IMG/VR virus record: IMGVR_UViG_3300043449_000953
Coordinates: 1-23,060 of that record
Strand: one strand, 5' to 3'
Source of the DNA: a virus
DNA: 23,060 nucleotides
Both the position numbers and the translations under genes were made by a program. Below the pieces are notes generated by a model. That model was not told where the DNA came from. It did no database searches and saw only the letters and a list, made by a program, of their open reading frames with translations. This document shows, in pieces, positions 1,661 to 16,315 of the stretch (positions within the stretch are counted from its first letter, which is position 1; each line of letters starts with the position of its first letter).

Positions 1661-1673
1661 CTAGGTCTCCAAA

Positions 1674-3759: not shown

Positions 3760-3789
3760 AGAACTGTTTGGGGCTCCTGCGTTCGGGCG

Positions 3790-4062: not shown

Positions 4063-4082
4063 ACCTGTAATGCCGATAAAGC

Positions 4083-4111
4083 TTGACATTGTTCCAGCTT
4101 TGCGAGACAAT
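4083..4111 (+). promoter_or_regulatory. Sigma-70-type promoter, first rightward gene
   Basis: TTGACA (4083-4088), a 17-base spacer and GACAAT (4106-4111). It precedes the GTG at 4168 by 56 bases, and GAGGT stands 7 bases before that GTG. Confidence 0.7.
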
Positions 4112-4167
4112 AGCTCCACGGTCAAGCAAGGCAACACCTGCCACGCGCCGTATACGAGGTATCTACT

Positions 4168-4689: not shown

Positions 4690-4735
4690 GCAGCTGCTAA
4701 CAAGTCGGGCGGGACTGACACCGCCTAGCTTAGTG

Positions 4736-4766
4736 GCCCGGTCTGGATTCCAGACCGGGCTTTTTT
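4736..4766 (+). terminator. Strong intrinsic terminator
   Basis: An 11-bp perfect GC-rich stem (GCCCGGTCTGG, loop ATT, complementary arm) at 4736-4760 is followed directly by six T (4761-4766). It ends the transcript of the gene at 4168-4689. Confidence 0.95.
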
Positions 4767-4846
4767 GTGCCCATCGAATCCACAAAGTTTTATTATGATA
4801 GCGACGCAAGGCGAAGGCGATGCGGCGGCACTAGGTGGGTCTTGAC

Positions 4847-4877
4847 CGATATGCTGCGGTGGCAGCATATCGTTTTT
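4847..4877 (+). terminator. Second terminator-like hairpin
   Basis: CGATATGCTGC, loop GGTG, and its perfect complement (11 bp, 4847-4872) are followed by TTTTT at 4873-4877. It lies 80 bases past the first terminator with no gene between, so it is either a back-up terminator or the end of a very short RNA. Confidence 0.7.
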
Positions 4878-4900
4878 CGGCAAGAAGCGCAAGGGGGTCT

Positions 4901-5224
4901 TGTTCCTTTCGTGTTCCTTTTGTTCCGCATGTTCCGCGAGCCCGGAACACAGCAAGTCGTTGATTCTGTAGCGGAAATCACCTCTTTTTTAATAATGTTC
5001 CAATGTTCCTTATATATATGTAGACGGGGCTATTCGTACTTTTTAAAAAATTCGTGTGAGTTTTTTTTTGTTGTGTTCCGTTTTTCGTGGATCTTGCCAA
5101 CCTCGTAATTAGCGCGGAACAACGGAACATGTTGTCATCGAACGTCGCAAGATCTTGATCCCACTGCATTTCACATCGTTTCCTGTTTCGGAACATCGCC
5201 CACAAAACCGCGTTTCGCGGAACA
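4901..5224. repeat. Cluster of TGTTCC / GGAACA hexamers
   Basis: TGTTCC occurs at 4901, 4912, 4921, 4930, 4996, 5004 and 5074; GGAACA occurs at 4944, 5116, 5124, 5190 and 5219. That is 12 copies of a 6-mer and its complement in 324 bases, far above chance. Spacings are often 8-11 bases (4901/4912/4921/4930, 4996/5004, 5116/5124), near one helical turn. Some copies form inverted pairs: TGTTCCG-6-CGGAACA at 4930-4949 and the near-palindrome TGTTTCGGAACA at 5184-5195. This resembles iterons or a cooperative binding array. The binding protein is unknown. Confidence 0.7.
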
Positions 5225-5289
5225 AAGTTGTGGTCGCGTGGTGCTGTGGCGCATTTTGACGATTGTGGCCTCATTCTCCTGTGGTTCTG

Positions 5290-5298
5290 TGGTATCAT
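5290..5298 (+). promoter_or_regulatory. Possible extended -10 promoter before the small-gene array
   Basis: TG-G-TATCAT reads as an extended -10 element, 41 bases before the ATG at 5340. There is no good -35 at the right distance (a TTGACG at 5256 is too far). It is the best candidate I can see for starting the transcript of the HTH-like gene. Confidence 0.3.
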
Positions 5299-5339
5299 TC
5301 TCTCGTTCCGTTGTTCTATTGTTCTACTGTGGAGGCACT

Positions 5340-5522
5340 ATGAATTCCATCGAATCGCACCGCGCCATTGCCGATCAGCCATTGACTGTCGAGGGCATCA
5401 CAAAACCCCTGCATGAATGGGCAAGGCTGCGCGGCATCCCGTACAAGACCGTTGCAATGCGCTGGGCACGCGGGCACAGGAATCCCAAAACCCTGCTGCA
5501 CAAAAAGGCTGCAAATGGATAA
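5340..5522 (+). CDS. Small HTH-like DNA-binding protein (NUMOD/AlpA-like)
   Basis: This 60-aa protein starts at ATG 5340 with GGAGG 4 bases upstream. After LTVEGITKPLHEWARLRG, the stretch IPYKTVAMRWARGHRNPKTL resembles the short helix-turn-helix found in phage proteins and at the ends of HNH homing endonucleases (pattern: SLxEWAxxxGIxxxTxxxRxxxGWxxxxAL). A DNA-binding role is therefore likely; no nuclease domain is present. It is the first gene after the TGTTCC array and before the paralogue array. Its last codons (AAT GGA TAA) overlap the next start and use the same GGCTGCAAATG junction as the paralogues that follow. A role as regulator of the nearby repeats is conjecture. Confidence 0.75.
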   Translation: MNSIESHRAIADQPLTVEGITKPLHEWARLRGIPYKTVAMRWARGHRNPKTLLHKKAANG

Positions 5523-5757
5523 CAAGTTATCAGATGATAACAAGTATGTGTTGTTCCAACACAGGCGAGACCCGAGCCGCGTGCATGTGTGGTCGGTAGC
5601 CAGTTGGGAGAAACACAGCGAGGGCGTCTACGGCAAAGAGTGGAACGTACTAGCCGAGTCCAACGACTACGAAGAACTGCTGGCCCTGTACAAGCTGATC
5701 AAGGCTGCCCACATGTCACAGGAGCAAAAACCCAAACTCGAATACTTGACTTTATAG
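5515..5757 (+). CDS. Array paralogue 1, unknown function (80 aa)
   Basis: First member of the array. ATG 5515 overlaps the end of the HTH-like gene by 8 bases; AAGG of the upstream gene serves as ribosome site. The N-terminus MDNKLSDDNKYVLFQ contains the palindrome-coded LSDDNK. It continues through VWSVASWEKH and EWNVLAES to EELLALYKLIKAAH. Unlike the others it has a C-terminal extension ending EYLTL, which is encoded by the -35 region of the promoter at 5746. The extension is therefore probably dictated by the DNA element. No known domain recognised. Confidence 0.85.
   Translation: MDNKLSDDNKYVLFQHRRDPSRVHVWSVASWEKHSEGVYGKEWNVLAESNDYEELLALYKLIKAAHMSQEQKPKLEYLTL
5526..5541. repeat. Dispersed palindrome copy 1
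   Basis: GTTATCA-GA-TGATAAC followed by AAG, 11 bases after the start of paralogue 1. The G of the left arm is a third codon position. Confidence 0.9.
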
Positions 5758-5774
5758 GTAATAAGTGTTATACT
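5746..5774 (+). promoter_or_regulatory. Sigma-70-type promoter before paralogue 2
   Basis: TTGACT (5746-5751), a 17-base spacer and TATACT (5769-5774). The surrounding AATACTTGACTTTATAG and GTGTTATAC sequence nearly matches the promoter at 7351, so these look like copies. It lies across the end of paralogue 1. Confidence 0.88.
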
Positions 5775-5819
5775 ATCTCCAATGGTCGTAGTCCGCCCGA
5801 CGCGGCAAGGAGAACGCAA

Positions 5820-6020
5820 ATGACTGACAAGTTATCAGGTGATAACAAGTGGCTGCTGATGAGGCACGATGATCTTGGGTGGATTGGGGTTTGGGACGTT
5901 CCGTTCTACCAAACCGTTCAGCGACGCAACCAACACCATGGATGGCGGGTATTGGCCGAGTCTGGCAGCCAAGACGAACTGATGGCCCTCAGAAAACTAA
6001 TCAAGGTCGCAAATGAGTAA
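5820..6020 (+). CDS. Array paralogue 2, unknown function (66 aa)
   Basis: Starts at ATG 5820 after AAGGAG with a 6-base gap, 46 bases past the -10 of its own promoter. MTDKLSGDNKWLLMR carries the palindrome-coded segment. The core is WIGVWDVPFYQ, WRVLAES and DELMALRKLIKVANE. The stop overlaps the next start as ATGAGTAA. It heads a co-transcribed run of eight overlapping genes (5820-7335). Function unknown; the small size and early-type expression suit a host-interacting protein. Confidence 0.87.
   Translation: MTDKLSGDNKWLLMRHDDLGWIGVWDVPFYQTVQRRNQHHGWRVLAESGSQDELMALRKLIKVANE
5831..5846. repeat. Dispersed palindrome copy 2
   Basis: GTTATCA-GG-TGATAAC followed by AAGTGG, 11 bases after the start of paralogue 2. 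Confidence 0.9.
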
Positions 6021-6198
6021 GAAGTATGTGCTGCTGCAATACGGACCTCCGCAAAACTGGACCGAAGTGTGGGATGCGGGATATTGGGCACGCTACCAAG
6101 AGATCACTCCGCACACGGACTGGCACGAAGTCTGCCAAGGTAACTCGAAGGAAGAACTGCTTGCTCTACTCAAACTAATCGAGGCTGCAAATGAGTAA
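6013..6198 (+). CDS. Array paralogue 3, unknown function (61 aa)
   Basis: MSKKYVLLQYG begins directly without the palindrome-coded insert. The middle has EVWDAGYWARYQ, then W-HEVCQGNSKEELLALLKLIEAANE, where the usual AES has become QGN. It overlaps both neighbours by 8 bases through ATGAGTAA, and the AAGG of the preceding gene lies 7 bases before its ATG. No recognised family outside the array. Confidence 0.86.
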   Translation: MSKKYVLLQYGPPQNWTEVWDAGYWARYQEITPHTDWHEVCQGNSKEELLALLKLIEAANE

Positions 6199-6403
6199 CA
6201 AGTGGCTGCTGGTCAGGTTCGACTACCGCTGGCCCGAGACGGATAGCGCGTACAGGATCTTCAGTCGGGAGCTATGGGATTCACGCATGAAACTGGTGCC
6301 CTATGATCCGCTGATGCCGCGCCGCTACACGATCATTGCCGAGTCCGATGAGTTCGACGAACTCGAAGCCCTGCTCAAACTGATCGAGGCTGCAAATGAG
6401 TGA
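6191..6403 (+). CDS. Array paralogue 4, unknown function (70 aa)
   Basis: MSNKWLLVRF lacks the palindrome-coded insert: AACAAGTGG follows ATGAGT directly. It has a longer middle (YRIFSRELWDSRMK...) before YTIIAESDEFDELEALLKLIEAANE. The ribosome site is GAGG inside the Glu-Ala codons of paralogue 3, 6 bases before its ATG. Overlap with the next gene is ATGAGTGA. Function unknown. Confidence 0.86.
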   Translation: MSNKWLLVRFDYRWPETDSAYRIFSRELWDSRMKLVPYDPLMPRRYTIIAESDEFDELEALLKLIEAANE

Positions 6404-6584
6404 CAAGAAGCGGTGGGCACTGCTGCAACACGACAGGCTAATGCGCGGAACCGTCTGGAACTCGGACCAGTGGGACAAATTCCTGCGGACAAACCCCACT
6501 ACGGGGTGGAAGGAAGTAATGAGGTCAGACGACCGGGATGAACTGCTTGCCCTTGCCAAGCTGATGGGGGGACCGGATGAGTAA
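6396..6584 (+). CDS. Array paralogue 5, unknown function (62 aa)
   Basis: MSDKKRWALLQHDR, TVWNSDQWDKFL, GWKEVMRSDDRDELLALAKLMGGPDE. The tail GGPDE departs from EAANE, but the gene keeps a G-rich ribosome site (GGGGGG) and the ATGAGTAA overlap for the next gene. No palindrome in this copy. Function unknown. Confidence 0.85.
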   Translation: MSDKKRWALLQHDRLMRGTVWNSDQWDKFLRTNPTTGWKEVMRSDDRDELLALAKLMGGPDE

Positions 6585-6789
6585 GCCAACCTATGTGCTA
6601 GTGAAGTTGACAATTAAAACGCCTCCAAACCGGGGGATGTATCAAGTTTGGCAACAAACCGACTACCGTGACCTGATGAAGCGCAGACCAGACACCGCTT
6701 GGCAACTGGTTGCCGAAGGTCCGAAGGCAGAAATGTTTGCCCTGCAAGCATTGGCGGAGGCTGCAAATGAGCAAGTTATCACCCGATAA
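6577..6789 (+). CDS. Array paralogue 6, unknown function (70 aa)
   Basis: MSKPTYVLVKLTIK, YQVWQQTDYRDLMK, AWQLVAEGPKAEMFALQALAEAANE, then QVITR. The last residues arise because the junction reads ATGAGCAA rather than ATGAGTAA, so this frame runs on until the TAA inside palindrome copy 3. It overlaps the next gene by 23 bases. AEG replaces AES, as in paralogue 8, so these two may be a subgroup. Confidence 0.84.
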   Translation: MSKPTYVLVKLTIKTPPNRGMYQVWQQTDYRDLMKRRPDTAWQLVAEGPKAEMFALQALAEAANEQVITR

Positions 6790-6958
6790 CAAGCAGTGGG
6801 TGCTGATGGAGCTGAACGGCTGGTGTGACATTTGGCACCGCTCAACATGGCTGCAGGTGTTCGGAGATACCAAAGCCGAATGGCGGTGCATCGCTGAGTC
6901 CGATGACGAGACGGAACTGATGGCCCTCAAGAAACTGATCAAGGCTGCAAATGAGTAA
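6767..6958 (+). CDS. Array paralogue 7, unknown function (63 aa)
   Basis: The start is ATG 6767, with GAGG 6 bases upstream and the same junction as the other members. A longer in-frame upstream extension exists but would lie inside paralogue 6. MSKLSPDNKQWVLMEL contains the palindrome-coded KLSPDNK; then CDIWHRSTWLQVF, EWRCIAESDDETELMALKKLIKAANE. It ends with an ATGAGTAA overlap. Function unknown. Confidence 0.86.
   Translation: MSKLSPDNKQWVLMELNGWCDIWHRSTWLQVFGDTKAEWRCIAESDDETELMALKKLIKAANE
6775..6790. repeat. Dispersed palindrome copy 3
   Basis: GTTATCA-CC-CGATAAC; one arm base differs (C for T at the start of the right arm). It lies 8 bases after the start of paralogue 7 and supplies the stop codon of paralogue 6. 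Confidence 0.85.
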
Positions 6959-7166
6959 CCATGATAGCGACGACGAGCTGTGGGTACTGATCCGGTTCAA
7001 CAGGTACGCAATGAAGTCTGGGTTCAGCCCCTACGCGCAGATGAGCAAAAAAGTCTGGGATGCCCACCGAGTCCAAAACTGGACCGTGATTGCGGAAGGC
7101 CCGTGGCACGAGATCGACGCGCTTAGAAAACTTAGCGAGGCTGCAAATGAGCAAGTTATCACCTGA
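6951..7166 (+). CDS. Array paralogue 8, unknown function (71 aa)
   Basis: MSNHDSDDELWVLIRF has an acidic N-terminal segment in place of the palindrome-coded one. It continues with KKVWDAHRVQNWTVIAEGPWHEIDALRKLSEAANE and then QVIT. As in paralogue 6, the ATGAGCAA junction lets the frame run into the next palindrome, whose TGA ends it, giving a 20-base overlap with paralogue 9. Function unknown. Confidence 0.85.
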   Translation: MSNHDSDDELWVLIRFNRYAMKSGFSPYAQMSKKVWDAHRVQNWTVIAEGPWHEIDALRKLSEAANEQVIT

Positions 7167-7335
7167 TAACAAGTGGGTGCTGGCCCGCTTCGGTTCGTTA
7201 CAATACGTGATAAGCGCCCATGAATGGAACGAGCACGTTAAGCGCACCCCAACAACAAAATGGGAACTGGTTGCGGATTCCGATGACGAACACGAGCTGC
7301 ACGCCCTCATGAAGCTGATCGAGGCCGCATGTTGA
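7147..7335 (+). CDS. Array paralogue 9, unknown function (62 aa)
   Basis: Start ATG 7147 by analogy with the other junctions (GAGGCTGCAA before it). MSKLSPDNKWVLARFG, ISAHEWNEHVKRTPTTKWELVADSDDEHELHALMKLIEAAC. The tail ends EAAC instead of EAANE because the junction is broken here, and a new promoter follows within 16 bases. It is the last gene of the transcript run begun at 5820. Confidence 0.86.
   Translation: MSKLSPDNKWVLARFGSLQYVISAHEWNEHVKRTPTTKWELVADSDDEHELHALMKLIEAAC
7155..7170. repeat. Dispersed palindrome copy 4
   Basis: GTTATCA-CC-TGATAAC followed by AAGTGG, 8 bases after the start of paralogue 9. It supplies the stop of paralogue 8. Confidence 0.9.
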
Positions 7336-7350
7336 TGGGTTCCAAAATAC

Positions 7351-7379
7351 TTGACTTTATAGTTAAGATGTGTTACAAT
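7351..7379 (+). promoter_or_regulatory. Sigma-70-type promoter before paralogue 10
   Basis: TTGACT (7351-7356), a 17-base spacer and TACAAT (7374-7379). The flanks AATACTTGACTTTATAG and GTGTTA are shared with the promoter at 5746. Confidence 0.87.
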
Positions 7380-7414
7380 GTATCTAACAGTCAAGCTACG
7401 CCCGGAGGTGAGTG

Positions 7415-7600
7415 ATGTTATCAGCTGATAACAAGTGGGTGCTGGTTAGCCACGGCAACAAAGAATGGGCTGGACCCGAGGTCATCACAGTGCGTGCATG
7501 GCTGGCGTTTACCCGCGAGGTCAAAGAAACAGCTTGGTATGTGGTCGCTGAGTCCGACAACAGGCACGAGCTTGAAGCCCTGAAGAAGTTGATGCCATGA
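7415..7600 (+). CDS. Array paralogue 10, unknown function (61 aa)
   Basis: ATG 7415 is chosen over the GTG three bases earlier because GGAGG then lies 6 bases upstream. MLSADNKWVLVSHG starts inside the palindrome itself: the G of ATG is its first base. It continues EVITVRAWLAFTREVK, AWYVVAESDNRHELEALKKLMP. It ends in an ATGA overlap with paralogue 11. It heads the transcript of the second promoter in the array. Confidence 0.86.
   Translation: MLSADNKWVLVSHGNKEWAGPEVITVRAWLAFTREVKETAWYVVAESDNRHELEALKKLMP
7417..7432. repeat. Dispersed palindrome copy 5
   Basis: GTTATCA-GC-TGATAAC followed by AAGTGG; its first base is the last base of the start codon of paralogue 10. Confidence 0.9.
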
Positions 7601-7773
7601 AGAAGTATGTACTGCTCGCGCATATCAAGACGGGGCAAGGGTCATTGCTTCCCAAGGCTGCGTATGAGGACATCCAAAAAACAATGAGCCCAAACCACGC
7701 AAGCAACTGGAAAGTCATCGCTGAAGCCGATACCCGTGAGGAGCTTTGGCCGATGGGGAAGTTGATGCCATGA
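7597..7773 (+). CDS. Array paralogue 11, unknown function (58 aa)
   Basis: The ATGA overlap with the preceding stop sets the start at 7597. MKKYVLLAHIKTG, SLLPKAAYEDIQK, NWKVIAEADTREELWPMGKLMP. It keeps the VIAE and EEL features but has lost several others (LWPMGKL for LxALxKL). The end GATGCCATGA repeats the end of paralogue 10, showing recent common origin of the two junctions. Last recognisable member of the array. Confidence 0.82.
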   Translation: MKKYVLLAHIKTGQGSLLPKAAYEDIQKTMSPNHASNWKVIAEADTREELWPMGKLMP

Positions 7774-7961
7774 GTTATCAACCTGATAACAAGATGCACA
7801 TCTTCGGCAGGCTGGCAAAGATTGACCGCATGTGTTCGAAGTGCAAGACACGCAAGCCCATTCGGGGCGGCAAGATCCGACGTGTTGATGGTAGACAAGT
7901 ATTCAAGTGTGAGGAGTGCGTCAATGGACAACATCGAACGGGGCCGGTTGTGCCGGTGTAA
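7770..7961 (+). CDS. Small zinc-ribbon-like protein (63 aa)
   Basis: ATG 7770 overlaps the preceding stop as ATGA. The N-terminus MSYQPDNKMHIFGRL contains the palindrome in a different reading frame from the paralogues. The rest has CSKCKTRKPIRGGK and VFKCEECVNGQ, two C-x-x-C pairs about 20 residues apart, the form of a zinc ribbon that could bind nucleic acid. Highly basic between the pairs. The first few codons may have been swapped in with the palindrome. Exact function unknown. Confidence 0.78.
   Translation: MSYQPDNKMHIFGRLAKIDRMCSKCKTRKPIRGGKIRRVDGRQVFKCEECVNGQHRTGPVVPV
7774..7790. repeat. Dispersed palindrome copy 6
   Basis: GTTATCA-ACC-TGATAAC (3-base centre), 4 bases after the start of the zinc-ribbon gene; followed by AAGATG. 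Confidence 0.9.
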
Positions 7962-8133
7962 CGAGTGCGACGACTGCGATGCGTACCGGGCTCACATGGC
8001 AGAACGTGAGCGCATTGCCCGAGCAACACGACATGCCAAGCCGGTGCTGTGCTTGCACAAGAGTTGCTACCAAGTCGTAGCCAACCTCGAAGAGATCAAG
8101 GGTTTCGGTAACAAGGGAGGATTTTACAGATGA
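7924..8133 (+). CDS. Small cysteine-rich protein (69 aa)
   Basis: The start ATG 7924 follows GAGGAG with a 7-base gap, inside the end of the previous gene (38-base overlap). An in-frame start further upstream would lie wholly within that gene and is less likely. CRCNECDDC near residues 10-18 and CLHKSCYQ further on suggest a metal site. The segment between them (AYRAHMAERERIARATRHAK) is a basic helix. Not a recognised family. Confidence 0.72.
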   Translation: MDNIERGRLCRCNECDDCDAYRAHMAERERIARATRHAKPVLCLHKSCYQVVANLEEIKGFGNKGGFYR

Positions 8134-8270
8134 GTAACGATTACTGGAAAGGCTACGCCGAGGGACGTGGGTTCGGCTATAGCCAAGGGTTCAGCATGGG
8201 GTTTTGGTCCGCCGTGCTGTTGATCGGCGGGGTGGTGTGTGCTGGGTTGCTTATGATGAGGGTGATGTGA
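8130..8270 (+). CDS. Small membrane protein with Gly/aromatic N-terminus (46 aa)
   Basis: ATGA overlap with the previous stop; GGGAGG lies 8-9 bases before the ATG. The N-terminal half, MSNDYWKGYAEGRGFGYSQG, repeats Gly and aromatic residues. The C-terminal half (about residues 23-44, FWSAVLLIGGVVCAGLLMM) is one transmembrane helix. It could be a holin-like, superinfection or envelope-associated peptide; no lysis enzyme is adjacent, so I leave it unnamed. Confidence 0.68.
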   Translation: MSNDYWKGYAEGRGFGYSQGFSMGFWSAVLLIGGVVCAGLLMMRVM

Positions 8271-8422
8271 TGTTCAGATTCATACTGGTACTCGGGTTCG
8301 GTTTGTTCCTCGCATGGGCGGTGGATGCCAGCAAAGCCGAGGCCCTTATTATCATCATGCTAATGGAAGTTATCCTTCCGTACTTTAAGTCAGTGGAGGT
8401 GCAAGATGGCAACGATCTATGA
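8270..8422 (+). CDS. Small membrane protein (50 aa)
   Basis: The start at 8270 shares one base with the preceding stop (TGATG), with GAGGGTG upstream. Two hydrophobic stretches (about residues 2-18 and 24-38) flank a short VDASKAEA segment, then an acidic tail VEVQDGNDL. It is probably a membrane hairpin or a signal-anchored peptide. It sits directly after another membrane peptide, so the two may work together. Function unknown. Confidence 0.65.
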   Translation: MFRFILVLGFGLFLAWAVDASKAEALIIIMLMEVILPYFKSVEVQDGNDL

Positions 8423-8612
8423 ACGACGCAAGAAGATCGAGAAGGAGCAGAAGCGGTTTGTACGCAAGTTGCGTGCATTGCAGGACGAGTGCCCGCATCC
8501 GCCGGAGCGGGTCGAGTTCACAAAGACGGGCGTCAGTTACATTGCGCTATGCCGTGACTGCCTGAAGGAGGCTGTGCGTGAAGATGCTGCCGAAGCAACG
8601 TCCGAAGTGTGA
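8406..8612 (+). CDS. Small basic coiled-coil/zinc-site protein (68 aa)
   Basis: ATG 8406 has GGAGG 6 bases upstream. The first 27 residues form a charged helix (YERRKKIEKEQKRFVRKLRALQ) and are followed by CPHPPERV and, after about 16 residues, CRDCLKE, which could hold one zinc ion. The overall form resembles small phage proteins thought to bind nucleic acid. Function unknown. Confidence 0.74.
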   Translation: MATIYERRKKIEKEQKRFVRKLRALQDECPHPPERVEFTKTGVSYIALCRDCLKEAVREDAAEATSEV

Positions 8613-8763
8613 TGTGTGTATCGGTGAGGGATTCATCTTTGGATTCTTCGAAGAGCATGTCGAGTGCGATCACTGCGAGGGCACAGGGTACGAACTTACC
8701 CTGTCTGAGCCAGACGAAGATCCGTATGCAGATTCCGAGTGGACTGGAGGTGTGGAATGTTAG
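8578..8763 (+). CDS. DnaJ-type zinc-finger microprotein (61 aa)
   Basis: Two CxxCxGxG-like motifs, CDVCIGEGF and CDHCEGTGY, are separated by about 14 residues, as in the cysteine-rich domain of DnaJ, and the tail is acidic. The J-domain is absent. The start is GTG 8578 (AGGAGG 6 bases upstream); the in-frame ATG at 8584 is possible but further away. Likely a small zinc protein; whether it engages a chaperone is unknown. Confidence 0.75.
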   Translation: MKMLPKQRPKCDVCIGEGFIFGFFEEHVECDHCEGTGYELTLSEPDEDPYADSEWTGGVEC

Positions 8764-8951
8764 GTGGATTTTTCATTGGACTGGTGTTTGGTGCTGCCCT
8801 TGTGATTGGGTTCGAGGCCGTGCATTACTTTTTGTCCTTTCGTAAGGACAAGGCAGCGGACATCGAATTCTACTGGCGCAGAAACAAGACCGACGTGGCA
8901 AGGCCGGGTAGTGCTGAGCATTTCCACCGAGTGTTCGGGCACAAAGAGTAA
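8757..8951 (+). CDS. Small N-anchored membrane protein (64 aa)
   Basis: ATG 8757 overlaps the previous gene by 7 bases and is preceded by GGAGG. Residues 2-24 (LGGFFIGLVFGAALVIGFEA) form one Gly-rich transmembrane helix; the rest is a basic cytoplasmic-type tail (SFRKDKAADIEFYWRRNK...). Not a recognised family. It is the last gene before palindrome copy 7. Confidence 0.72.
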   Translation: MLGGFFIGLVFGAALVIGFEAVHYFLSFRKDKAADIEFYWRRNKTDVARPGSAEHFHRVFGHKE

Positions 8952-8957
8952 CAGCCT

Positions 8958-8973
8958 GTTATCACCTGATAAC
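8958..8973. repeat. Dispersed palindrome copy 7 (intergenic)
   Basis: GTTATCA-CC-TGATAAC stands in the 38-base gap before the gene at 8990, just upstream of its AGGAGA ribosome site. As an intergenic copy it argues that the repeat is not kept for a protein sequence. Confidence 0.9.
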
Positions 8974-8989
8974 AACATAGGAGACGATG

Positions 8990-9811
8990 ATGAGTGCAAG
9001 ACTTTATAACGAGTTCAAAGCCAAGCACGATGCGATCAAGCCGATACGTGGACGCAAGCCAGAGTGGAGGCCGATCAAGAATCGGCGCAAGACGCACGAG
9101 TCGATCCACGAGGTAACGCACAACGGCGTCAAGGGTATCGCGTGCCGACTGTACAACACAGATGTGGTTACCTTCCTGCAGGATGGCAAGATCCTGATCA
9201 ACACAGGGGGCTGGAATACGCAGACTACGCAGAAGTTTATCAGTGACCATTCGCCGTGGTCCTGCACCAAGAGTTCCAACCGGTTGTGGCTGTACGTCCG
9301 TGGTACAGCGGTTCCGATTGAACGAGACGGGACTTCGACCGTGCTTGAAGCTGGTGAGTCGGGCTTTCGCCTAGTCCGTGACAAACCGTTCCAGCAGAAG
9401 GTTGTAGACAGGGTTAAGGCCAAGGAAGCACGTCGCCCGCTCGAACCGTTCCTGCAATGGGCCAAGACATTCCTCGCGCTGTCGGGGAACATGGTGGCCT
9501 ACGAGACGCACAAGCAAGTGTGTGGGGTTTCGGGGCAGGATGTGTGGGGCAAGGAGCAAGTGAACTATGACTTCTGGAGGCGGCTGCGTACATCCACGGG
9601 AATCTACGAATATCTCTGCAACCTGCATGAGGAGGACTACATCAAGGTGTTGTGTGCAATGTTCCCTACCAGTTCATACTTCAGGGAGGATGTGGACGTG
9701 ACGTTCCGGCAGGTCAAGGATGCAGTGTATGGAATCTGCAATAGTGCTGCTGACGTACACAAGTACGTCGAAGTGAAGCTGGGCCCAAAGCCCATCGCCA
9801 ATCTCGTATAA
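8990..9811 (+). CDS. Conserved-looking phage protein of unknown role (273 aa)
   Basis: AGGAGA precedes two adjacent ATGs; the second (8990) has the better gap. The N-terminus is very basic. Around residues 50-85, CRLYNTDVVTFLQDGKILIN followed by TGGW and TTQKFI matches a pattern I associate with unnamed phage proteins (x-LYNTDVVTF...G-x-I-x-INTGGW-x-T-x-TT). The C-terminal two thirds are helical with many aromatic residues. I know no enzyme with this pattern. It follows palindrome copy 7 and is cut off from the next operon by a promoter. Confidence 0.85.
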   Translation: MSARLYNEFKAKHDAIKPIRGRKPEWRPIKNRRKTHESIHEVTHNGVKGIACRLYNTDVVTFLQDGKILINTGGWNTQTTQKFISDHSPWSCTKSSNRLWLYVRGTAVPIERDGTSTVLEAGESGFRLVRDKPFQQKVVDRVKAKEARRPLEPFLQWAKTFLALSGNMVAYETHKQVCGVSGQDVWGKEQVNYDFWRRLRTSTGIYEYLCNLHEEDYIKVLCAMFPTSSYFREDVDVTFRQVKDAVYGICNSAADVHKYVEVKLGPKPIANLV

Positions 9812-9828
9812 ACTTCTTTTTCAAATAC

Positions 9829-9857
9829 TTGACTTTGAGCCGTCATTCAGTTATAAT
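9829..9857 (+). promoter_or_regulatory. Sigma-70-type promoter of the AAA+/VWA operon
   Basis: TTGACT (9829-9834), a 17-base spacer and a perfect TATAAT (9852-9857). AAATACTTGACTTT matches the promoters at 5746 and 7351. It is the strongest -10 in the window. Confidence 0.92.
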
Positions 9858-9892
9858 ATCTGGGACGGTTGGATAATTAACAGGAGAATGTG

Positions 9893-10978
9893 ATGAGTGC
9901 AATTAACTTCGGCAAGACCGTTTCGCTCCGTGAGTTCGCCCATGCCATCGCTACGGTGGGCGATAAGGTCACTATCATTGGTCAAGGCGAACCCGGCATC
10001 GGCAAGTCGGCCATGCTCAAGGTGCTGGCGGGCAAGTTCCCGACTCATGAGATTGCGTATATCGACTGCACGTTGCTTGACTTGGGTGACTTCGCGCTGC
10101 CCTACACCGAGGAGCATGTTATCAATGATAACAAGATGCGGGTGACCAAGTTCGCCCCCAATGCACGGTTCAAGTTCCACACGGGTCGGCCCGTTGTCAT
10201 CATGCTGGACGAGATCGGCAAGGCGATGAAGTCGGTCAAGAATGTGCTGTTGACCCTCATGCTGGAGCAGCGGATCGGTGACCAGTACCTGCCCCAAGGC
10301 AGCATCGTGTTCGGCACGACCAACCTGATGAGCGACGGGGTTGGCGACTCGCTCGAAGCACATGCCCGCAACCGTGTGGGTCTGGTGACGGTACGCAAGC
10401 CCGACTCCGACGAGTGGATCGAGTGGGCTATCAGCAACAACATTGCGCCTGAGATCATCGCGTGGGTTAAGCAGTTCCCCCATGCCCTTGCGAGCTACAC
10501 CGACCCGGCGCAGCGTGACAACCCGTACATCTTCAATCCGCAGCGTGCGGGTATGGGTGCCGTGGTGACTCCGCGCTCGCTGGAGAAGGCCAGCCACATT
10601 GCCAAGCAGCGCGATACTCTGGGCGATGAGTTGACCATCGGTATGCTGACTGGCGTGATCGGTGAGTCGGCTGCGCGTGACATGCAGGCGTTCTTCACGG
10701 TGGTGGACAAGCTGCCGTCGTGGGATTCGATCCTCAAGGATCCGGCTAACGCCAAGATGCCGAGCGACGCGGTGGCCCGTTGCATCCTCGTGTTCAGCGC
10801 CATTGCCCGCATCGAGAAGGACACGCTCGCCAAGTGGATGGAGTATGTGCAGCGCATGGACAAGGAATGGCAGGCCCTGTTCGCCACCAGCGTGATGAAG
10901 TCGCCCACCAAGCAGGCGTTCTGCGTGATGAACAAGCAGTTCAAGGATTGGGCCGTGGCTAATACGTGGCTGTTCTAA
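9893..10978 (+). CDS. MoxR/CobS-like AAA+ ATPase
   Basis: 361 aa from ATG 9893 (AGGAGA 5 bases upstream; a GTG three bases earlier is less likely). Walker A is GEPGIGKS at residues 32-39, Walker B VVIMLDE at 101-107, sensor-1 Asn in FGTTNLM at 144 and a probable arginine finger in HARNR at 159-161. This is the MoxR/CobS type of AAA+ protein, which remodels or activates partner proteins and normally works with a VWA-domain partner. Such a partner is encoded three genes downstream (11449). A dispersed palindrome lies in codons 76-80. The substrate is unknown. Confidence 0.93.
   Translation: MSAINFGKTVSLREFAHAIATVGDKVTIIGQGEPGIGKSAMLKVLAGKFPTHEIAYIDCTLLDLGDFALPYTEEHVINDNKMRVTKFAPNARFKFHTGRPVVIMLDEIGKAMKSVKNVLLTLMLEQRIGDQYLPQGSIVFGTTNLMSDGVGDSLEAHARNRVGLVTVRKPDSDEWIEWAISNNIAPEIIAWVKQFPHALASYTDPAQRDNPYIFNPQRAGMGAVVTPRSLEKASHIAKQRDTLGDELTIGMLTGVIGESAARDMQAFFTVVDKLPSWDSILKDPANAKMPSDAVARCILVFSAIARIEKDTLAKWMEYVQRMDKEWQALFATSVMKSPTKQAFCVMNKQFKDWAVANTWLF
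10118..10132. repeat. Dispersed palindrome copy 8 (inside the AAA+ gene)
   Basis: GTTATCA-A-TGATAAC with a 1-base centre, followed by AAGATG. Here GTT is a full codon (Val-Ile-Asn-Asp-Asn), a different frame from copies 1-6. Confidence 0.88.
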
Positions 10979-11211
10979 TGAAGCCGCCAAGCAAGAAGCT
11001 GATCGACAACTGGAAAGAACAGCAGCAGTTGGTACACAGGATGGGGGCCACAGTGCTTGAGCTGATGCGCCATCCTGACTCAACCATGGCCGAGGTGATG
11101 GACGTGCGGAACCGGTATGCCAAGACGTACACCGAACACCGCATGATGCGGGATCGCCTGCGCAAACTGTTCCGGTCGCATGGCACATTTTTTACGTACC
11201 CATGGGAGTAG
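10978..11211 (+). CDS. Small helical protein between AAA+ and VWA genes (77 aa)
   Basis: ATG 10978 overlaps the AAA+ stop as TAATG, so it is probably translated by reinitiation; no clear ribosome site is present. The protein is basic, predicted all-helical (LIDNWKEQQQLVHRMGATVLELM, RNRYAKTYTEHRMMRDRLRKL), possibly a coiled coil. Not recognised. Its place between ATPase and VWA genes suggests a small accessory subunit, but this is inference. Confidence 0.72.
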   Translation: MKPPSKKLIDNWKEQQQLVHRMGATVLELMRHPDSTMAEVMDVRNRYAKTYTEHRMMRDRLRKLFRSHGTFFTYPWE

Positions 11212-11215
11212 CAAC

Positions 11216-11452
11216 ATGCCAAAAGTAAAAGTTCGTATTGGATATACCGACTACATGATGGACGAGGAGCCTGCGTTCGCTTTGTTCAAGGCGCTGAACG
11301 GCCCGACTGTCGAGCGGTTGGAGGCTACGTATGACTCTGCGACCAAGCATAGTGGGCATAAGTTGATCGAGCAGGATGCGGGGTTCGTTACGTTGCATTC
11401 CGTATCTAAAGCAGAGTACGCAATTTGGAAACTTGCAGGAGCTAGCACATGA
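11216..11452 (+). CDS. Small unknown protein in the AAA+/VWA operon (78 aa)
   Basis: ATG 11216 has GGGAG 7 bases upstream. MPKVKVRIGYTDYMMDE begins with a basic strand, then FALFKALNGPTVERLEA and GFVTLHSVSKAEYAIWKLAG. A small alpha/beta fold is likely. It overlaps the VWA gene by ATGA, so the two are probably co-translated. I do not recognise the family. Confidence 0.75.
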   Translation: MPKVKVRIGYTDYMMDEEPAFALFKALNGPTVERLEATYDSATKHSGHKLIEQDAGFVTLHSVSKAEYAIWKLAGAST

Positions 11453-12660
11453 CTACCTTGACTATCGAGCAGCAGATCCAGAAGGAACACGTCTGGCTGA
11501 TGAAGCATCCGAACTATTGCCTGTACTCGGGCATCATCATGATCGGCAAGACCGAGGTGCGGGACGACATTCCGACTGCGTGTACTGACGGGCGCAATAC
11601 ATACTATGGCCGTGAGTTCTGCAGCAAGCTGGACAAGCAGGGGCTGCGTGCGGTGATCCTGCACGAGAATCTGCACAAGGCATTCCGCCATACAACGATG
11701 TGGCAGCATCTGTACAAGCAGTGGCCCATCGTTGCGAACATGGCGTGCGACTATGTTATCAACCTGATAATAAAAGACAGCGATCCCGAGGGTAAGGAGG
11801 TCAAGCTGCCTGACTCCGCGTTGCTTGACGATAAGTTTCGTGGGCTGGATGCTGGCGAGGTGTTCCGCAGGCTGAAGCAGGAAGCTGAATCTACCGGCAA
11901 GATCAACGTCAAGACGGCGGGTGATCAGAAAGGTAAGGACGTACCGGTTACCGAGGGTAGCCCGATGCCCGGTGGCTTTGACGAGCACGACTGGGAAGAA
12001 GCCGAGGGCATGTCGCAAGAGGAGAAGGAAGGGCTTGCCAAGGACATTGATCAGGCGCTGCGGCAGGGTGCGATCCTTGCTGGCAAGCTGAAGGGTAACG
12101 TCCCGCGTGAGTTGTCTGAGCTTACCGAGTCCAAGGTTGACTGGCGCGAAGCCCTGCGTGAGTTCGTGACTTCTTTCTGCGCGGACAAGGATGAGAGCAC
12201 ATGGCGCACACCATCCCGTAGGTGGATCGGGCAGGACGTATACATGCCGACCATGATCAGTGAATCGGTTGGTCGGGTTGTCGTAGGCATCGACATGTCC
12301 GGATCCATCGGGCCCACCGAGATCGGCCAGTTCTTGGGCGAGGTGCGCAGCATCTGCGAGCGTGTCCGTCCCGAGGGTATCGACTTGCTGTATTGGGATA
12401 CCGACGTGTGCCAGCACGAGAAGTACGATCAGGACCAGCTTGATAGCCTGTTGTCCAGCACGAAGCCCCGTGGGGGTGGCGGTACGTCGCCGCAGTGCAT
12501 CGTGAACTACATGAAGGCCCACAAGATCAAGGCCGAGTGTGCGGTGATCTTGACTGACGGGTACGTGGATAGCTTCGGTAGTGACTGGCCGTGCCCGACT
12601 CTGTGGGGCATCACGACCGACCGTGTGAGCGACGTGGGTAAGACTGTTCGAGTTCAATAA
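11449..12660 (+). CDS. HExxH metallopeptidase-like plus VWA domain protein (DUF2201/CobT-like)
   Basis: 403 aa. The N-terminal part has VILHENLHKAFRH, an HExxH zinc motif at residues 72-76 as in the putative metallopeptidase domain next to DUF2201 VWA domains. A charged linker (about 120-220) is followed by a VWA domain with the MIDAS signature D-M-S-G-S at 282-286, GGGGTS near 344 and LTDGY near 370. VWA proteins with this layout pair with MoxR/CobS ATPases, as in the CbbQ-CbbO, NorQ-NorD and RavA-ViaA families. Metal binding is supported by intact MIDAS residues. The target in the infected cell is unknown. Confidence 0.9.
   Translation: MTTLTIEQQIQKEHVWLMKHPNYCLYSGIIMIGKTEVRDDIPTACTDGRNTYYGREFCSKLDKQGLRAVILHENLHKAFRHTTMWQHLYKQWPIVANMACDYVINLIIKDSDPEGKEVKLPDSALLDDKFRGLDAGEVFRRLKQEAESTGKINVKTAGDQKGKDVPVTEGSPMPGGFDEHDWEEAEGMSQEEKEGLAKDIDQALRQGAILAGKLKGNVPRELSELTESKVDWREALREFVTSFCADKDESTWRTPSRRWIGQDVYMPTMISESVGRVVVGIDMSGSIGPTEIGQFLGEVRSICERVRPEGIDLLYWDTDVCQHEKYDQDQLDSLLSSTKPRGGGGTSPQCIVNYMKAHKIKAECAVILTDGYVDSFGSDWPCPTLWGITTDRVSDVGKTVRVQ
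11755..11771. repeat. Dispersed palindrome copy 9 (inside the VWA gene)
   Basis: GTTATCA-ACC-TGATAAT: 3-base centre and one mismatch at the last base. It lies in codons 103-108 of the HExxH/VWA gene, in the frame Val-Ile-Asn-Leu-Ile-Ile. Confidence 0.82.
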
Positions 12661-12686
12661 TTCAGATTCAATCTAGGAGTGCAATC

Positions 12687-13520
12687 ATGATCCAGAATAG
12701 TGCAATGCTTGTTGACCTGAACATCTCTGTGTGGACTGGTCGCAAGATGGACAAGAAGGTGTCGGATGAAATCGATGCCAGCAAAAACACCAAGGCCAAG
12801 GCGGGCAACTACCACAAGAAGCTGTTGGCAGGTACCGACAAGCTGGATGCGATCCAGAGCCTGACCAGCACAATCCGCTTGTGGCATCACGTTCATACGT
12901 TGCCGTGGTCGGATGGCGGTTCGAGGCTGTTGCCGGTGCAGAGCTTCTTCGAGTACAAGCCAGCGATTGCCGAGTTCGAGCAGAAGTTCTACGCGCTTGT
13001 CGAGGAGTTTCTGGCCGAGTACCCGACGCTCGTGAGTGCAGCGGCGTTCCAGTTGGGCGACCTGTTCAATTCCAACGACTATCCGCCAGTGTCCGAGCTG
13101 CGCAGCAAGTTCCGTTTCCGCTACGTGTTCATGCCGGTACCGACTTCGGGCGACTTCCGCATCGATATCGAGGACGCGAGCCGCAAGGATCTTGAGGAGC
13201 AGTACACCAAGTTCTATGCCGACAAGTTGTCCGAAGCCATGAAGGACGTGTGGGAACGACTGCACGACTGCCTCTCGCATATGAGCGACAAGCTGGCTGG
13301 TGAGGAGAAGCAGCTGTTCCGTGACTCGCTTGTGGAGAATGCCGTGGAACTGTGCGGGGTGTTGGGCAAGCTGAACGTGGCGAACGACCTGAAGCTTGAA
13401 GATGCTAGGCAGAAGCTGGAGCGTGCCCTGATGGGTGTGTCCGCTGTCGAGCTGCGCAAGCACAACGACCTGCGCAAGGATGTCAAGGCCAAGGTCGATG
13501 AAATCCTTTCGATGTTCTAA
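12687..13520 (+). CDS. DUF3150-like protein, partner of the AAA+/VWA genes
   Basis: 277 aa from ATG 12687 with AGGAG 8 bases before it. The sequence (LNISVWTGRKMDKKV near the start, KAGNYHKKLL, FRFRYVFMPVP in the middle, then long helices to the end) resembles DUF3150 proteins, which in my knowledge are often encoded beside CobS-like ATPases and CobT-like VWA proteins in phages and integrative elements. It is 26 bases after the VWA gene in the same direction. The family call is from memory of the pattern and its neighbourhood; the biochemical role is unknown. Confidence 0.75.
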   Translation: MIQNSAMLVDLNISVWTGRKMDKKVSDEIDASKNTKAKAGNYHKKLLAGTDKLDAIQSLTSTIRLWHHVHTLPWSDGGSRLLPVQSFFEYKPAIAEFEQKFYALVEEFLAEYPTLVSAAAFQLGDLFNSNDYPPVSELRSKFRFRYVFMPVPTSGDFRIDIEDASRKDLEEQYTKFYADKLSEAMKDVWERLHDCLSHMSDKLAGEEKQLFRDSLVENAVELCGVLGKLNVANDLKLEDARQKLERALMGVSAVELRKHNDLRKDVKAKVDEILSMF

Positions 13521-13535
13521 TTATCAGGTGATAAC
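13521..13535. repeat. Dispersed palindrome copy 10 (intergenic, carries a ribosome site)
   Basis: TTATCA-GG-TGATAA then C; the outer G of the left arm is A here. It fills the 15-base gap between two genes and touches the next ATG (13536). Its centre AGGTGA is also the only ribosome site of that gene, so a bound protein or a folded hairpin would block translation. Confidence 0.88.
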
Positions 13536-14336
13536 ATGATTATTATTGACGACACAGATTCGCTGTACGGGGAGTTGGACCCTAAGCTGAAGGAAGCTGT
13601 CGAGCAGTTTGCCAAGAACCACAAGAGCGAGTTCCCGATCCACGCTGAGATATTCAGCAAGACCAAGGTGCGGTTCTGGGATACGCGGTTCGTGAAACAT
13701 GGCAGGTCACTCGCTAACTTGACGTTCAATATCGACAACGATAAAAAGTTGCGGCTGACTTCGACCCGCATCAAGAATCCGAAGTGTAAGCCCTTCCATT
13801 CAAACTACCACGCCAAGATCAGCAAGAACGTGGGGCCGATTGTCAAGGCATTGCGGGAGTTCGTGTACCCCACTACCCCTGTCGAAATGCGAGCGGCTTC
13901 GAGCAATGGAGTTGCTACCGCGCACAACGAATGGCAGACGGAACCCATGATTTCGTTCAAGGAGTTACGGGGGAACTTGTTTGATTCGGATGCGTCACTC
14001 GTTGCCGAGTTTCAGCAGTTGCTTGCGGCGGGGGCAATGCTCGCTACGGAACCGTTCAGGAAGTTTGCTGCCGAGGGAGTCGGGCTCTACGCAGAACGTG
14101 AACGACGCAATAGGGTTGATAACCGGTATACCTCGCTGTGCATCAATCCCGACAACACGATAGACATATGCGCACCAAATGGGGAAGCCTACCGGTTCGG
14201 ATCGGTAGCCGAGCTGCCCCCTGCCCTGAGTGAACGACTGGCCCTGCTGCGTATGACCGAGGGGGAAACATTCGTCCCCGAAGTCGGGATGAAGTACGGC
14301 GGGATCTTTTGGATTTACGAAGGGCCTAACGCTTGA
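13536..14336 (+). CDS. Unknown protein with a duplicated C-terminal segment (266 aa)
   Basis: ATG 13536 directly follows palindrome copy 10, whose AGGTGA acts as ribosome site. The N-terminal 120 residues are charged and mixed alpha/beta. The last part, LPPALSERLALLRMTEGETF followed by a GGIFWIY segment, is mirrored in the next gene (LPTFLTERLALLR...EGETF...FHVYL), so the two share a segment. No recognised domain. It is the last gene of the operon that starts at 9893. Confidence 0.82.
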   Translation: MIIIDDTDSLYGELDPKLKEAVEQFAKNHKSEFPIHAEIFSKTKVRFWDTRFVKHGRSLANLTFNIDNDKKLRLTSTRIKNPKCKPFHSNYHAKISKNVGPIVKALREFVYPTTPVEMRAASSNGVATAHNEWQTEPMISFKELRGNLFDSDASLVAEFQQLLAAGAMLATEPFRKFAAEGVGLYAERERRNRVDNRYTSLCINPDNTIDICAPNGEAYRFGSVAELPPALSERLALLRMTEGETFVPEVGMKYGGIFWIYEGPNA

Positions 14337-14361
14337 CTTGTTTGGGACAGTAGGATAGTTT
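14333..14361 (+). promoter_or_regulatory. Sigma-70-type promoter before the 93-aa gene
   Basis: TTGACT (14333-14338), a 17-base spacer and TAGTTT (14356-14361), a weaker -10. The next ATG is at 14368, about where transcription would begin. Confidence 0.6.
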
Positions 14362-14367
14362 AGGGGA

Positions 14368-14649
14368 ATGAAAACTTATGTAGCTACGATCTATTGTGAC
14401 GAGGAAGGTGGCGCGTTCGTAGCGCATGTAGGCAACAACAAGACCATAGAGAGTTTTCCACTTGTGGGGGATTCGGTTACGTTGCCAACATTCTTGACCG
14501 AGCGCCTTGCCTTGCTTCGCCTGTGTGAGCCTAGTAAACAAAACGAAGGAGAGACCTTTGGCAGACGACTAACCGATTCGATGTTCCATGTTTACTTAAG
14601 CAAGACTGAATTTGATCAACTGAAGAAATTATCTCGGAGTGCAAAATGA
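14368..14649 (+). CDS. Unknown 93-aa protein related to the end of the preceding gene
   Basis: ATG 14368 with AGGGG just upstream. MKTYVATIYCDEEGGAFVAHVG is a beta-rich start; the centre LPTFLTERLALLRL and EGETF match the C-terminal segment of the gene at 13536, and it ends DSMFHVYLSKTEFDQLKKLS. A shared domain is therefore likely, probably by duplication. It lies after its own weak promoter and overlaps the next gene by ATGA. Function unknown. Confidence 0.78.
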   Translation: MKTYVATIYCDEEGGAFVAHVGNNKTIESFPLVGDSVTLPTFLTERLALLRLCEPSKQNEGETFGRRLTDSMFHVYLSKTEFDQLKKLSRSAK

Positions 14650-15014
14650 AGAAGCTTTCTGTTTCCGTCGCCACGACCAACCTGCTCAAGAATTCCAAGC
14701 AGCCCCTGACTGTTGCCCAGATTGCCAAGGCTACCAATAAGCCAGCAGCACAGGTGGCAACGACGCTTTGGAAGTTGAAGAAGGACGGCAGGGTCTACCA
14801 CAACACCGCCACCAACACGTACCGGTTATCAGCTGATAACAAGTTGCCGACCCACGCCAAGGTCGCAGCGCCGCGTATCGAAGTTCCTGAGCATAGCGAT
14901 GCCAGCAACTCGGTGGACAAGCGGTATGTGGATATGGCGGTCAAGTACATGGACGCGCTGGCCGTGATCCGGTACCTCGAAGGCAAGATCGCTGACCGCG
15001 ATGTCAACGCCTGA
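14646..15014 (+). CDS. Winged-helix DNA-binding protein 1 (122 aa)
   Basis: Residues 5-60 form a winged helix: LLKNSKQPLTVAQIAKATNK (helices 1-2), PAAQVATTLWKLKKDGRVYH (recognition helix), then the wing NTATNTYRLSAD. The wing end RLSADNK is encoded by palindrome copy 11. The C-terminal helix (VDKRYVDMAVKYMDALAVIR) could dimerise. CGGAG precedes ATG 14646. Probably a phage transcription or replication regulator; the target is unknown. It overlaps the next gene by 14 bases. Confidence 0.82.
   Translation: MKKLSVSVATTNLLKNSKQPLTVAQIAKATNKPAAQVATTLWKLKKDGRVYHNTATNTYRLSADNKLPTHAKVAAPRIEVPEHSDASNSVDKRYVDMAVKYMDALAVIRYLEGKIADRDVNA
14825..14840. repeat. Dispersed palindrome copy 11
   Basis: GTTATCA-GC-TGATAAC followed by AAGTTG, inside the winged-helix gene. 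It is identical to copy 5 over all 16 bases although the host genes are unrelated. Confidence 0.9.
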
Positions 15015-15327
15015 GAAGAAGGTAAAAGATAGAGTCAAACGTGTGCTGGCAGGGTGCGGTATTTATTACTTCATGCCTGCCACGCACGGCTACGGCTCGT
15101 CCGGTATCCCCGACCTGATCGCATGTAGGAAGGGGTTGTTCATTGGCATCGAGTGCAAGGCTGAAGGTAATAAGCCAACTACGTTGCAGTTGAAGAACCT
15201 CAATGACATCGTGATGGCCGGGGGTGTCGGTATCCTCGTGGACGAGACGGGGCTTGCCGACTTCGAGCTGATCATCAACACAGCCAAGAGTGGCGAGTTC
15301 TTTGACTTGCTCGCCAAACCCAAATGA
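15001..15327 (+). CDS. VRR-NUC domain nuclease
   Basis: 108 aa, the normal size for a stand-alone VRR-NUC protein of the PD-(D/E)xK superfamily. SSGIPDLIACRKGLFIGIE followed by CKAEG gives the catalytic set Asp38, Glu51 and Lys53, with Gln63 in the following helix. These enzymes cut structured or branched DNA, and in phages a role in resolving recombination or replication intermediates is usually proposed. Encoded among DNA-binding proteins and just before the polymerase, which fits. ATG 15001 lies inside the previous gene; its stop overlaps the next ATG. Confidence 0.92.
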   Translation: MSTPEKKVKDRVKRVLAGCGIYYFMPATHGYGSSGIPDLIACRKGLFIGIECKAEGNKPTTLQLKNLNDIVMAGGVGILVDETGLADFELIINTAKSGEFFDLLAKPK

Positions 15328-15539
15328 GATCCCGCCCCACAGACGGGGTAGTTCGGCGCTTACTACGTTGGATGCGTAGCGAATATGCCGTTTCTGTAAA
15401 AGATATCGCCCGCAAGTTTGATCTTGGCATCACGCAGTCGAGGCGGTACATACACAGACTGGAAAGAGAAGGTGCAATCTATCCACGGTACAGAGACCGG
15501 TGTGTTTACTATTCAGTAAGGAAAGACAATGAGACTTGA
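15324..15539 (+). CDS. Winged-helix DNA-binding protein 2 (71 aa)
   Basis: The whole protein is one winged helix: VVRRLLRWMRSEYAVSVKDI, then ARKFDLGITQSRRYIHRLER as the recognition helix, EGAIYPRYRDRCVYYSV as the wing. ATGA overlap with the nuclease gene sets the start. It is very basic, so DNA binding is likely; the regulated site is unknown. The second of three such genes in 1.2 kb. Confidence 0.85.
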   Translation: MRSRPTDGVVRRLLRWMRSEYAVSVKDIARKFDLGITQSRRYIHRLEREGAIYPRYRDRCVYYSVRKDNET

Positions 15540-15832: not shown

Positions 15833-16315
15833 ATGGCTATTGAAGACATGAACGAAGGTGTACGAATGCTGGCGGAACGCATGAAGACTAATCCGGAGGA
15901 GTTCAACCGGTATGGGAAGTGGAACGACATGCTGGCAATCGTTGACGATCCGGACCATGTGAAGTTCCTTACCGCTGAAGAAATCAAGTACCTGCAGGAA
16001 ACGACCCGCGAGATGCAGCGGCAACGGTTCACGACCAAAGTGCTTGAGACCTTGGTGCGGGATGAGGCGCAGGAAGACGTGCTTTCCAAGCCGTCGATCT
16101 ATGCCTATGGCAGTGCAGGTGGCGGCAGTATGGGATCTACGACGAGCATCGCGCAAGCAGCCAACTACAGTCTGTCCGCACTGGCACGGCAGAATGCCAT
16201 GTCACAACAGGCTGCGATGAATGCGTCCGCTGCATATACCCCCAACTGGAACCCGCCAACGCAGACCAGTGCGCCATCTGGATTGTTGGATAAGATCAAG
16301 GGGTTGATCCCTTGA
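15833..16315 (+). CDS. Unknown protein before the DNA polymerase (160 aa)
   Basis: ATG 15833 follows GAGGTG. The N-terminal 85 residues are helical and charged (MNEGVRMLAERMKTNPEEF, LTAEEIKYLQETTREMQRQR). The second half is low complexity, rich in Ser, Ala, Gly, Asn and Gln, and ends in an amphipathic SGLLDKIKGLIP. The disordered tail with a hydrophobic tip could be a docking peptide. It overlaps the polymerase start by 4 bases, so a replication accessory role is plausible. I do not recognise a family. Confidence 0.78.
   Translation: MAIEDMNEGVRMLAERMKTNPEEFNRYGKWNDMLAIVDDPDHVKFLTAEEIKYLQETTREMQRQRFTTKVLETLVRDEAQEDVLSKPSIYAYGSAGGGSMGSTTSIAQAANYSLSALARQNAMSQQAAMNASAAYTPNWNPPTQTSAPSGLLDKIKGLIP

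Follow-up and report, generated by a model that had tools for sequence, protein, structure and literature searches.

The 23,060-nucleotide (nt) virus record IMGVR_UViG_3300043449_000953, analysed here over its whole length (the window) and itself a fragment, carries eleven copies of the palindrome GTTATCA-N(1-3)-TGATAAC, all confined to its early region. We found that related phages carry sets of palindromes in similar places, each with a spelling of its own, and that the symmetry of these dyads favours recognition as DNA rather than as RNA. The palindromes are very probably DNA operators in the regulon of a factor encoded by the phage itself, and our candidate for this factor is the product of the first early gene, open reading frame (ORF) 4168.

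Palindromic sites in the window

A direct scan recovered all eleven palindromes listed in the original prediction for this DNA, each with at most one mismatch and all within 5526-14840; one start moves from 13521 to 13520. Eight copies are exact (5526, 5831, 7155, 7417, 7774, 8958, 10118 and 14825) and three have one mismatch (6775, 11755 and 13520). The spacer comprises 2 bases in eight sites, 3 bases in two (7774 and 11755) and 1 base in one (10118). This number is well above chance: each of 60 dinucleotide shuffles contained 0 such sites, and the nine matches to the N2 form with up to three mismatches were equalled in 0 of 100 shuffles. An AA follows the dyad in ten of the eleven sites, where nine had been counted as continuing with AA or AAG. 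Positions 1-5500, previously thought to be free of copies, hold a twelfth, variant dyad, ATTAACAGTGTTAAT (ATTAACA-G-TGTTAAT), upstream of the first early promoter. It differs from GTTATCA at two of the seven half-site bases, matches the consensus of relatives and lies where their first site lies. The twelve sites, to which no strand is assigned, are as follows.

4048-4062, no strand: site 0, ATTAACAGTGTTAAT, centre ~64 nt ahead of the start inferred for the first early promoter
5526-5541, no strand: GTTATCAGATGATAAC, in the first ORF of a tandem array, past its start codon
5831-5846, no strand: GTTATCAGGTGATAAC, centre ~56 nt downstream of the start of the 5746 promoter
6775-6790, no strand: GTTATCACCCGATAAC, one mismatch
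7155-7170, no strand: GTTATCACCTGATAAC, from the scan
7417-7432, no strand: GTTATCAGCTGATAAC, centre ~38 nt downstream of the start of the 7351 promoter
7774-7790, no strand: GTTATCAACCTGATAAC, centre of 3 bases, following the start codon of the ORF that ends at 7961
8958-8973, no strand: GTTATCACCTGATAAC, intergenic, just upstream of ORF 8987
10118-10132, no strand: GTTATCAATGATAAC, 1-base centre, inside the MoxR gene
11755-11771, no strand: GTTATCAACCTGATAAT, one mismatch, 3-base centre, inside the DUF2201 gene
13520-13535, no strand: ATTATCAGGTGATAAC, in the gap from the DUF3150 stop to the ATG at 13536, providing a Shine-Dalgarno-like GGTGA
14825-14840, no strand: GTTATCAGCTGATAAC, inside ORF 14646-15014

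Related phages carry their own spellings

Relatives were gathered through the MoxR and DUF2201 proteins (80 and 37 viral loci, respectively) and then searched for palindromes without a preset motif. Most loci contained a repeated dyad set, resulting in ~100 related phage contigs that each carry their own set, typically of 5-18 copies. About a dozen half-sites occur, among them ATTAACA, ATAAACA, ATTAAAC, TGATAACA, TTACTAAA, TACTGTC, TAATGTC, CCTAACA, TTATAGG and ATCGACA; the cultured phage MinM2 has GGTTCAG dyads, and one lineage has TGTGTAT-N5 in a set of only 4-5 copies. In contigs of 47-65 kb the sites are restricted to the early block beside a divergent terminase, and the relatives' own motif recurs at places matching window sites.

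The scan of related phages that had been suggested has a divided outcome: the exact GTTATCA-NN form led to no visible kin of the window, but relatives found by their proteins carry their own spellings in similar places. An exact scan of viral contigs for GTTATCA-NN-TGATAACAAG returned just 1-2 matches each, with no visible kinship to the window, and a near-identity search among cultured phages returned no relative. The phages DSL-LC04, HTVC027P, HTVC023P and 023Pt_psg01, which have the same terminase type and by annotation lack the MoxR module, have no comparable dyad set. We found no account of these palindromes in this phage lineage in the open-access literature.

Sites flank early promoters and fill intergenic gaps

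Placement was counted for 202 sites in 17 genomes by using our own heuristic gene calls. Intergenic sites numbered 135, compared to 48 expected, and 95 sites preceded the next start by at most 60 nt, compared to 26 expected. The layout in MinM2, for which the deposited annotation was used, matches that of the other genomes: intergenic gaps hold 20 of its 32 sites, compared to 15% expected, and 17 sites precede a start by no more than 60 nt, many of them by 22-23 nt.

Sigma70-like promoters were recognised from sequence, three of them in the window:

4083-4111, plus strand: TTGACA-N17-GACAAT, promoter of ORF 4168
5746-5774, plus strand: TTGACT-N17-TATACT
7351-7379, plus strand: TTGACT-N17-TACAAT

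A site lies within 120 nt of 30 of the 44 early promoters of this type. Relative to the inferred start, site centres fall at about -50 to -66 (n=8) or at +32 to +56 (n=18), with none between -50 and +30. Because no centre lies between the two clusters, the core promoter is never overlapped, and this geometry speaks for flanking control, by looping or by roadblocking elongation, rather than for simple occlusion.

Conservation lies in the DNA motif, not in the peptide

The coding features in or beside which most of the window sites lie are the following:

5515-7773, plus strand: tandem array of about ten divergent paralogous ORFs of 60-80 amino acids (aa) with overlapping stop and start codons, some members having a site after the start codon
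9890-10978, plus strand: MoxR-like AAA ATPase gene in the regulated block, with the site in a variable loop insert
11449-12660, plus strand: DUF2201 VWA-like metallopeptidase gene in the regulated block
12687-13520, plus strand: DUF3150-like gene in the regulated block

The sites had been described as lying in unrelated genes in all three codon phases. Phases 1, 2 and 3 do occur, but six of the nine intragenic sites share phase 3, in which they encode LSxDNK, and five of them (5526, 5831, 6775, 7155 and 7417) stand just past the start codons of array ORFs; the remaining sites are in unrelated genes or gaps. The array members 6013, 6191 and 6396 have no LSxDNK insert. Two members that were scanned had no Pfam match, and the members tested had no homologue in the relatives.

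That DNA rather than protein is conserved, in line with the original proposal of DNA or RNA, is borne out by the relatives' own motifs at matching places, and the MoxR copy is the clearest case. Between ALPYTE and KVTKFAPN, relatives have in-frame loop inserts with their own motif (GAG TTA ACA GGT GTT AAT in L020, TTA TCA GGT GTT AAT in L033 and ATT GAT AAC AGT GTT ATC AAT in L059, compared to GTT ATC AAT GAT AAC in the window), and other relatives have no insert. Each genome's DNA motif is retained while the encoded residues and the reading phase vary. We also considered the shared LSxDNK peptide as a general cause and rejected it, because phases differ and the residues of the MoxR loop change while the motif stays.

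The first early gene encodes a candidate regulator

Possible binding proteins in the window include the following:

4168-4689, plus strand: candidate regulator, first early gene, 173 aa, family A, with a helical N domain and a C-terminal two-helix hairpin
15324-15539, plus strand: rival regulator, a 71-aa winged-helix protein conserved in most relatives, partial Mantel test not significant

The first early gene encodes a protein of ~160-280 aa in every genome examined and adjoins the first site. Its product in the window, which was absent from the candidates first listed, is in our estimate a fairly probable binding factor. Its family follows the motif group: family A occurs in phages with A/T-type motifs, family B in TACTGTC and TAATGTC phages, and others elsewhere. 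Within family B, the N domains of two TAATGTC proteins are 68% identical to each other and 25-40% identical to those of TACTGTC proteins, whereas their C domains are 63-71% identical to those of two TACTGTC proteins. Because the N domain tracks the motif and the C domain is swapped, the N domain seems to carry the specificity, and domains appear to have been exchanged. The family B C domain (L079, L080, L070, L082, L071 and others) exists in two very different versions that are swapped among close relatives independently of the N domain.

We compared nine protein regions with motif distance by partial Mantel tests. A control for MoxR distance alone was uninformative, as VWA and DUF3150 scored equally high; hence, the tests were repeated with the mean MoxR/DUF2201/DUF3150 distance as control. 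The highest partial correlation was that of helix 89-119 of family A (r=0.38, p=0.0005), followed within this family by the N domain (0.28) and the C domain (0.07). The original prediction had named four helix-turn-helix or winged-helix candidates, 5340, 14646, 15324 and 15529, and the last two, of which 15529 is MarR-like, were compared in this way. The 15324 protein was attractive initially but is unsupported once phylogeny is controlled (r=0.09, p=0.26), and for the 15529 protein a weak signal persists (r=0.24, p=0.011).

The AlphaFold model of the ORF 4168 protein is confident (predicted local distance difference test, pLDDT, 91.8) and all-helical, ending in the two-helix hairpin; the N domain is basic and the C domain mostly acidic. 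The protein had no match in PDB (Foldseek, E<=0.001), BFVD, Pfam or PHROG, no recognised helix-turn-helix (HTH) and no tblastn match among annotated phage records. In six relatives (L031, L032, L023, L021, L041 and L047), the gene for the candidate regulator has an internal site, ~50-75 nt past the beginning of the ORF, where it encodes DINTVNKW or ELTGVNKW. These internal sites suggest autoregulation; the window copy of the gene has no such site.

A proposed roadblock model and its alternatives

The explanation that we prefer as a whole, and hold to be rather likely, combines the ORF 4168 regulator with dispersed operators that act as roadblocks in the manner of stoperators. Early operons would start from host sigma70 promoters. 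The ORF 4168 product would bind DNA through its N-terminal helical domain and presumably dimerise through its C-terminal two-helix hairpin. As it accumulates, it would occupy the dyad upstream of its own promoter as well as the dyads that lie 32-56 nt past other early promoters, between operon genes and within genes. Bound dimers would then act as elongation roadblocks and perhaps bridge sites to form loops, thereby damping the early block from the small ORFs through MoxR-DUF2201-DUF3150. Between phage lineages, operator and regulator would switch specificity jointly. Repression or roadblocking is the putative main action of the factor, and a probable one.

Several points weigh against this explanation. 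An activator, too, would fit the site that lies ~60 nt ahead of the first promoter. Centres of 1-3 bases are tolerated, which is unusual for a rigid dimer. The five array sites may stem from gene duplication, and they are not fully independent. Helix 89-119 was picked after the alignment had been viewed, and the 15529 protein likewise shows a weak signal. Moreover, profile comparison found no homology between the first genes of different motif groups, so the match of regulator and motif at group level could be mere lineage.

Whether the dyads are read as DNA or RNA can be judged from their mismatches, because recognition of a dyad in DNA makes G-T and mirror A-C changes equivalent, whereas G-U should dominate if RNA pairing were needed. 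Over 629 sites, G-U-type mismatches numbered 111 and A-C-type mismatches 94 (p=0.26; related sites are not independent), and the odd central base was A or T on either strand (A84/T33 and A19/T15). The lack of a G-U bias indicates that the dyad is read as DNA; together with the A/T centre in both orientations and the position of the first site upstream of the early promoter, this makes DNA the favoured substrate. Transcribed hairpins upstream of ribosome sites, serving as translation operators, RNA-processing sites or terminators, had been left open by the original prediction and are now improbable: many sites do precede a start codon by 3-50 nt, and some of them hold the Shine-Dalgarno sequence in their loop (ATTAACAGGAGTTAAT), but the innermost pair is often disrupted by AGGAG, and whole lineages switch sequence. 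The same switching of the entire set tells against a mobile miniature palindrome, also entertained earlier, or functionless copies spread by duplication, a reading that is now largely refuted. The five copies behind the start codons of tandem paralogues resemble in-frame inserts, but seven sites lie outside the array in unrelated places, the cassette position is conserved, and only one block is concerned. We give even less credence to single-stranded hairpin promoters of an N4-type virion RNA polymerase. N4-like phages are among the distant phages with a MoxR/VWA module and the dyads are in the early region; however, the 1,972-aa virion protein has no Pfam match and no polymerase domain, the early promoters are sigma70-like, and the dyads are operon-internal. 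N4 has few early promoters, and the number of dyads here is far greater.

Two further alternatives keep the DNA operators and are unlikely, although less so than the three above. The same regulon could be bound by another phage protein, either 15324 or 15529. Both are small winged-helix proteins kept in most motif-bearing relatives, and the recognition helix of 15324 differs between lineages. However, the 15324 family was not found in CCTAACA and TTATAGG phages, the recognition helix of 15529 is conserved although motifs differ, and there is no site at the promoter of either gene, in addition to the Mantel result for 15324. Alternatively, the factor could be an activator or dual regulator that activates from upstream sites near -60 and modulates from downstream ones. 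In several lineages, the centre of the first site falls at about -56 to -66 relative to the inferred start, which is a class I activator position, and the same geometry is seen at G017 29627 and G016 11216. Activation is nevertheless not expected from the 18 promoter-linked sites 32-56 nt downstream of a start or from sites in operon-internal gaps, where most of them lie, and many early promoters, being close to consensus, should need no activator.

Comparison with known systems and lifestyle

As a positive control, the identical scan of phiC31 recovered dyads (TACTCACGTGAGTA) in 15 exact copies, 14 of them intergenic and mostly within 80 nt upstream of genes. These are the known CIB repressor sites; the phiC31 record names gene c as repressor of lytic genes. 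The CIBs share with the sites described here perfect dyads repeated in intergenic gaps upstream of genes. In contrast, phiC31 is temperate with an integrase, its sites occur genome-wide including structural genes, and its 683-aa repressor has no similarity to ORF 4168.

Cluster A mycobacteriophages (L5, Bxb1) have repressor sites dispersed in 20-30 copies, many of which occupy short gaps between genes, with a lineage-specific consensus that co-evolves with a 183-residue repressor; these phages are temperate, their sites are 13 bp, asymmetric and oriented with transcription, and the repressor is a monomeric HTH protein (PMC6550527, PMC9283540). The L5 parallel drawn originally holds for the operator/stoperator-like layout, since the sites in the window and relatives are also many, dispersed, mostly not promoter-associated and often in short intergenic gaps. 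It does not hold as a close match: the sites here are perfect dyads with an A/T centre in both orientations, the leading candidate has no recognised HTH or Pfam, PHROG or PDB match, and no integrase was found. In SPbeta, the short intergenic repeated element SPBRE is bound by the non-HTH master repressor MrpR, which has a tyrosine-recombinase fold and recognises a 15-bp motif (PMC10516654). A regulatory element repeated in intergenic regions is common to both systems, but the ORF 4168 model had no Foldseek match at E<=0.001, so no tyrosine-recombinase fold was seen. By analogy, the system appears to work like phiC31 CIBs and cluster A stoperators yet falls under the definition of neither, because there is no homologous repressor, there are no lysogeny genes and, compared to L5, the sites are symmetric.

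Tyrosine recombinase, serine recombinase and ParA (PF00589, PF00239 and PF13614) were found in 0 of 20 relatives, whose contigs may be incomplete, and a MoxR scan of bacterial genomes returned no relative and hence no prophage. Because no integrase or ParA was found in these 20 relatives, the phages look virulent. Regulation of the stoperator type has been known chiefly from temperate actinophages, whereas the present sites belong to a large lineage of aquatic phages in which no lysogeny genes are recognisable. One may ask what a lytic phage gains from roadblocks across its own early genes; early shut-off, copy-number control and superinfection exclusion come into consideration. It is conceivable, at somewhat less than an even chance, that a large, apparently virulent lineage silences its early genes through dispersed dyad roadblocks by means of an undescribed class of sequence-specific DNA-binding regulator, encoded by the first early gene and comprising several unrelated-looking families with interchangeable domains. 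Operator specificity would be replaced as a whole from one close relative to the next, and co-infecting phages may supply the pressure for this, as a heteroimmunity without lysogeny. The natural series of motifs and proteins makes operator-regulator co-evolution testable and points to a candidate DNA-binding family without a recognised fold, of which the cultured phage MinM2/Pag-Yong1 is a tractable member.

Other genes

Two paralogous family A DNA polymerase genes lie ~5.5 kb apart in the window (16312-18150 and 21822-23060), the second running off the record end, and a ThyX-type thymidylate synthase gene (PF02511) is at 19357-20007. The early block of a TACTGTC phage (G014; L187:14660-14938) encodes a 92-aa protein with a sigma-70 region 4 domain (PF04545, E=3.5e-12).

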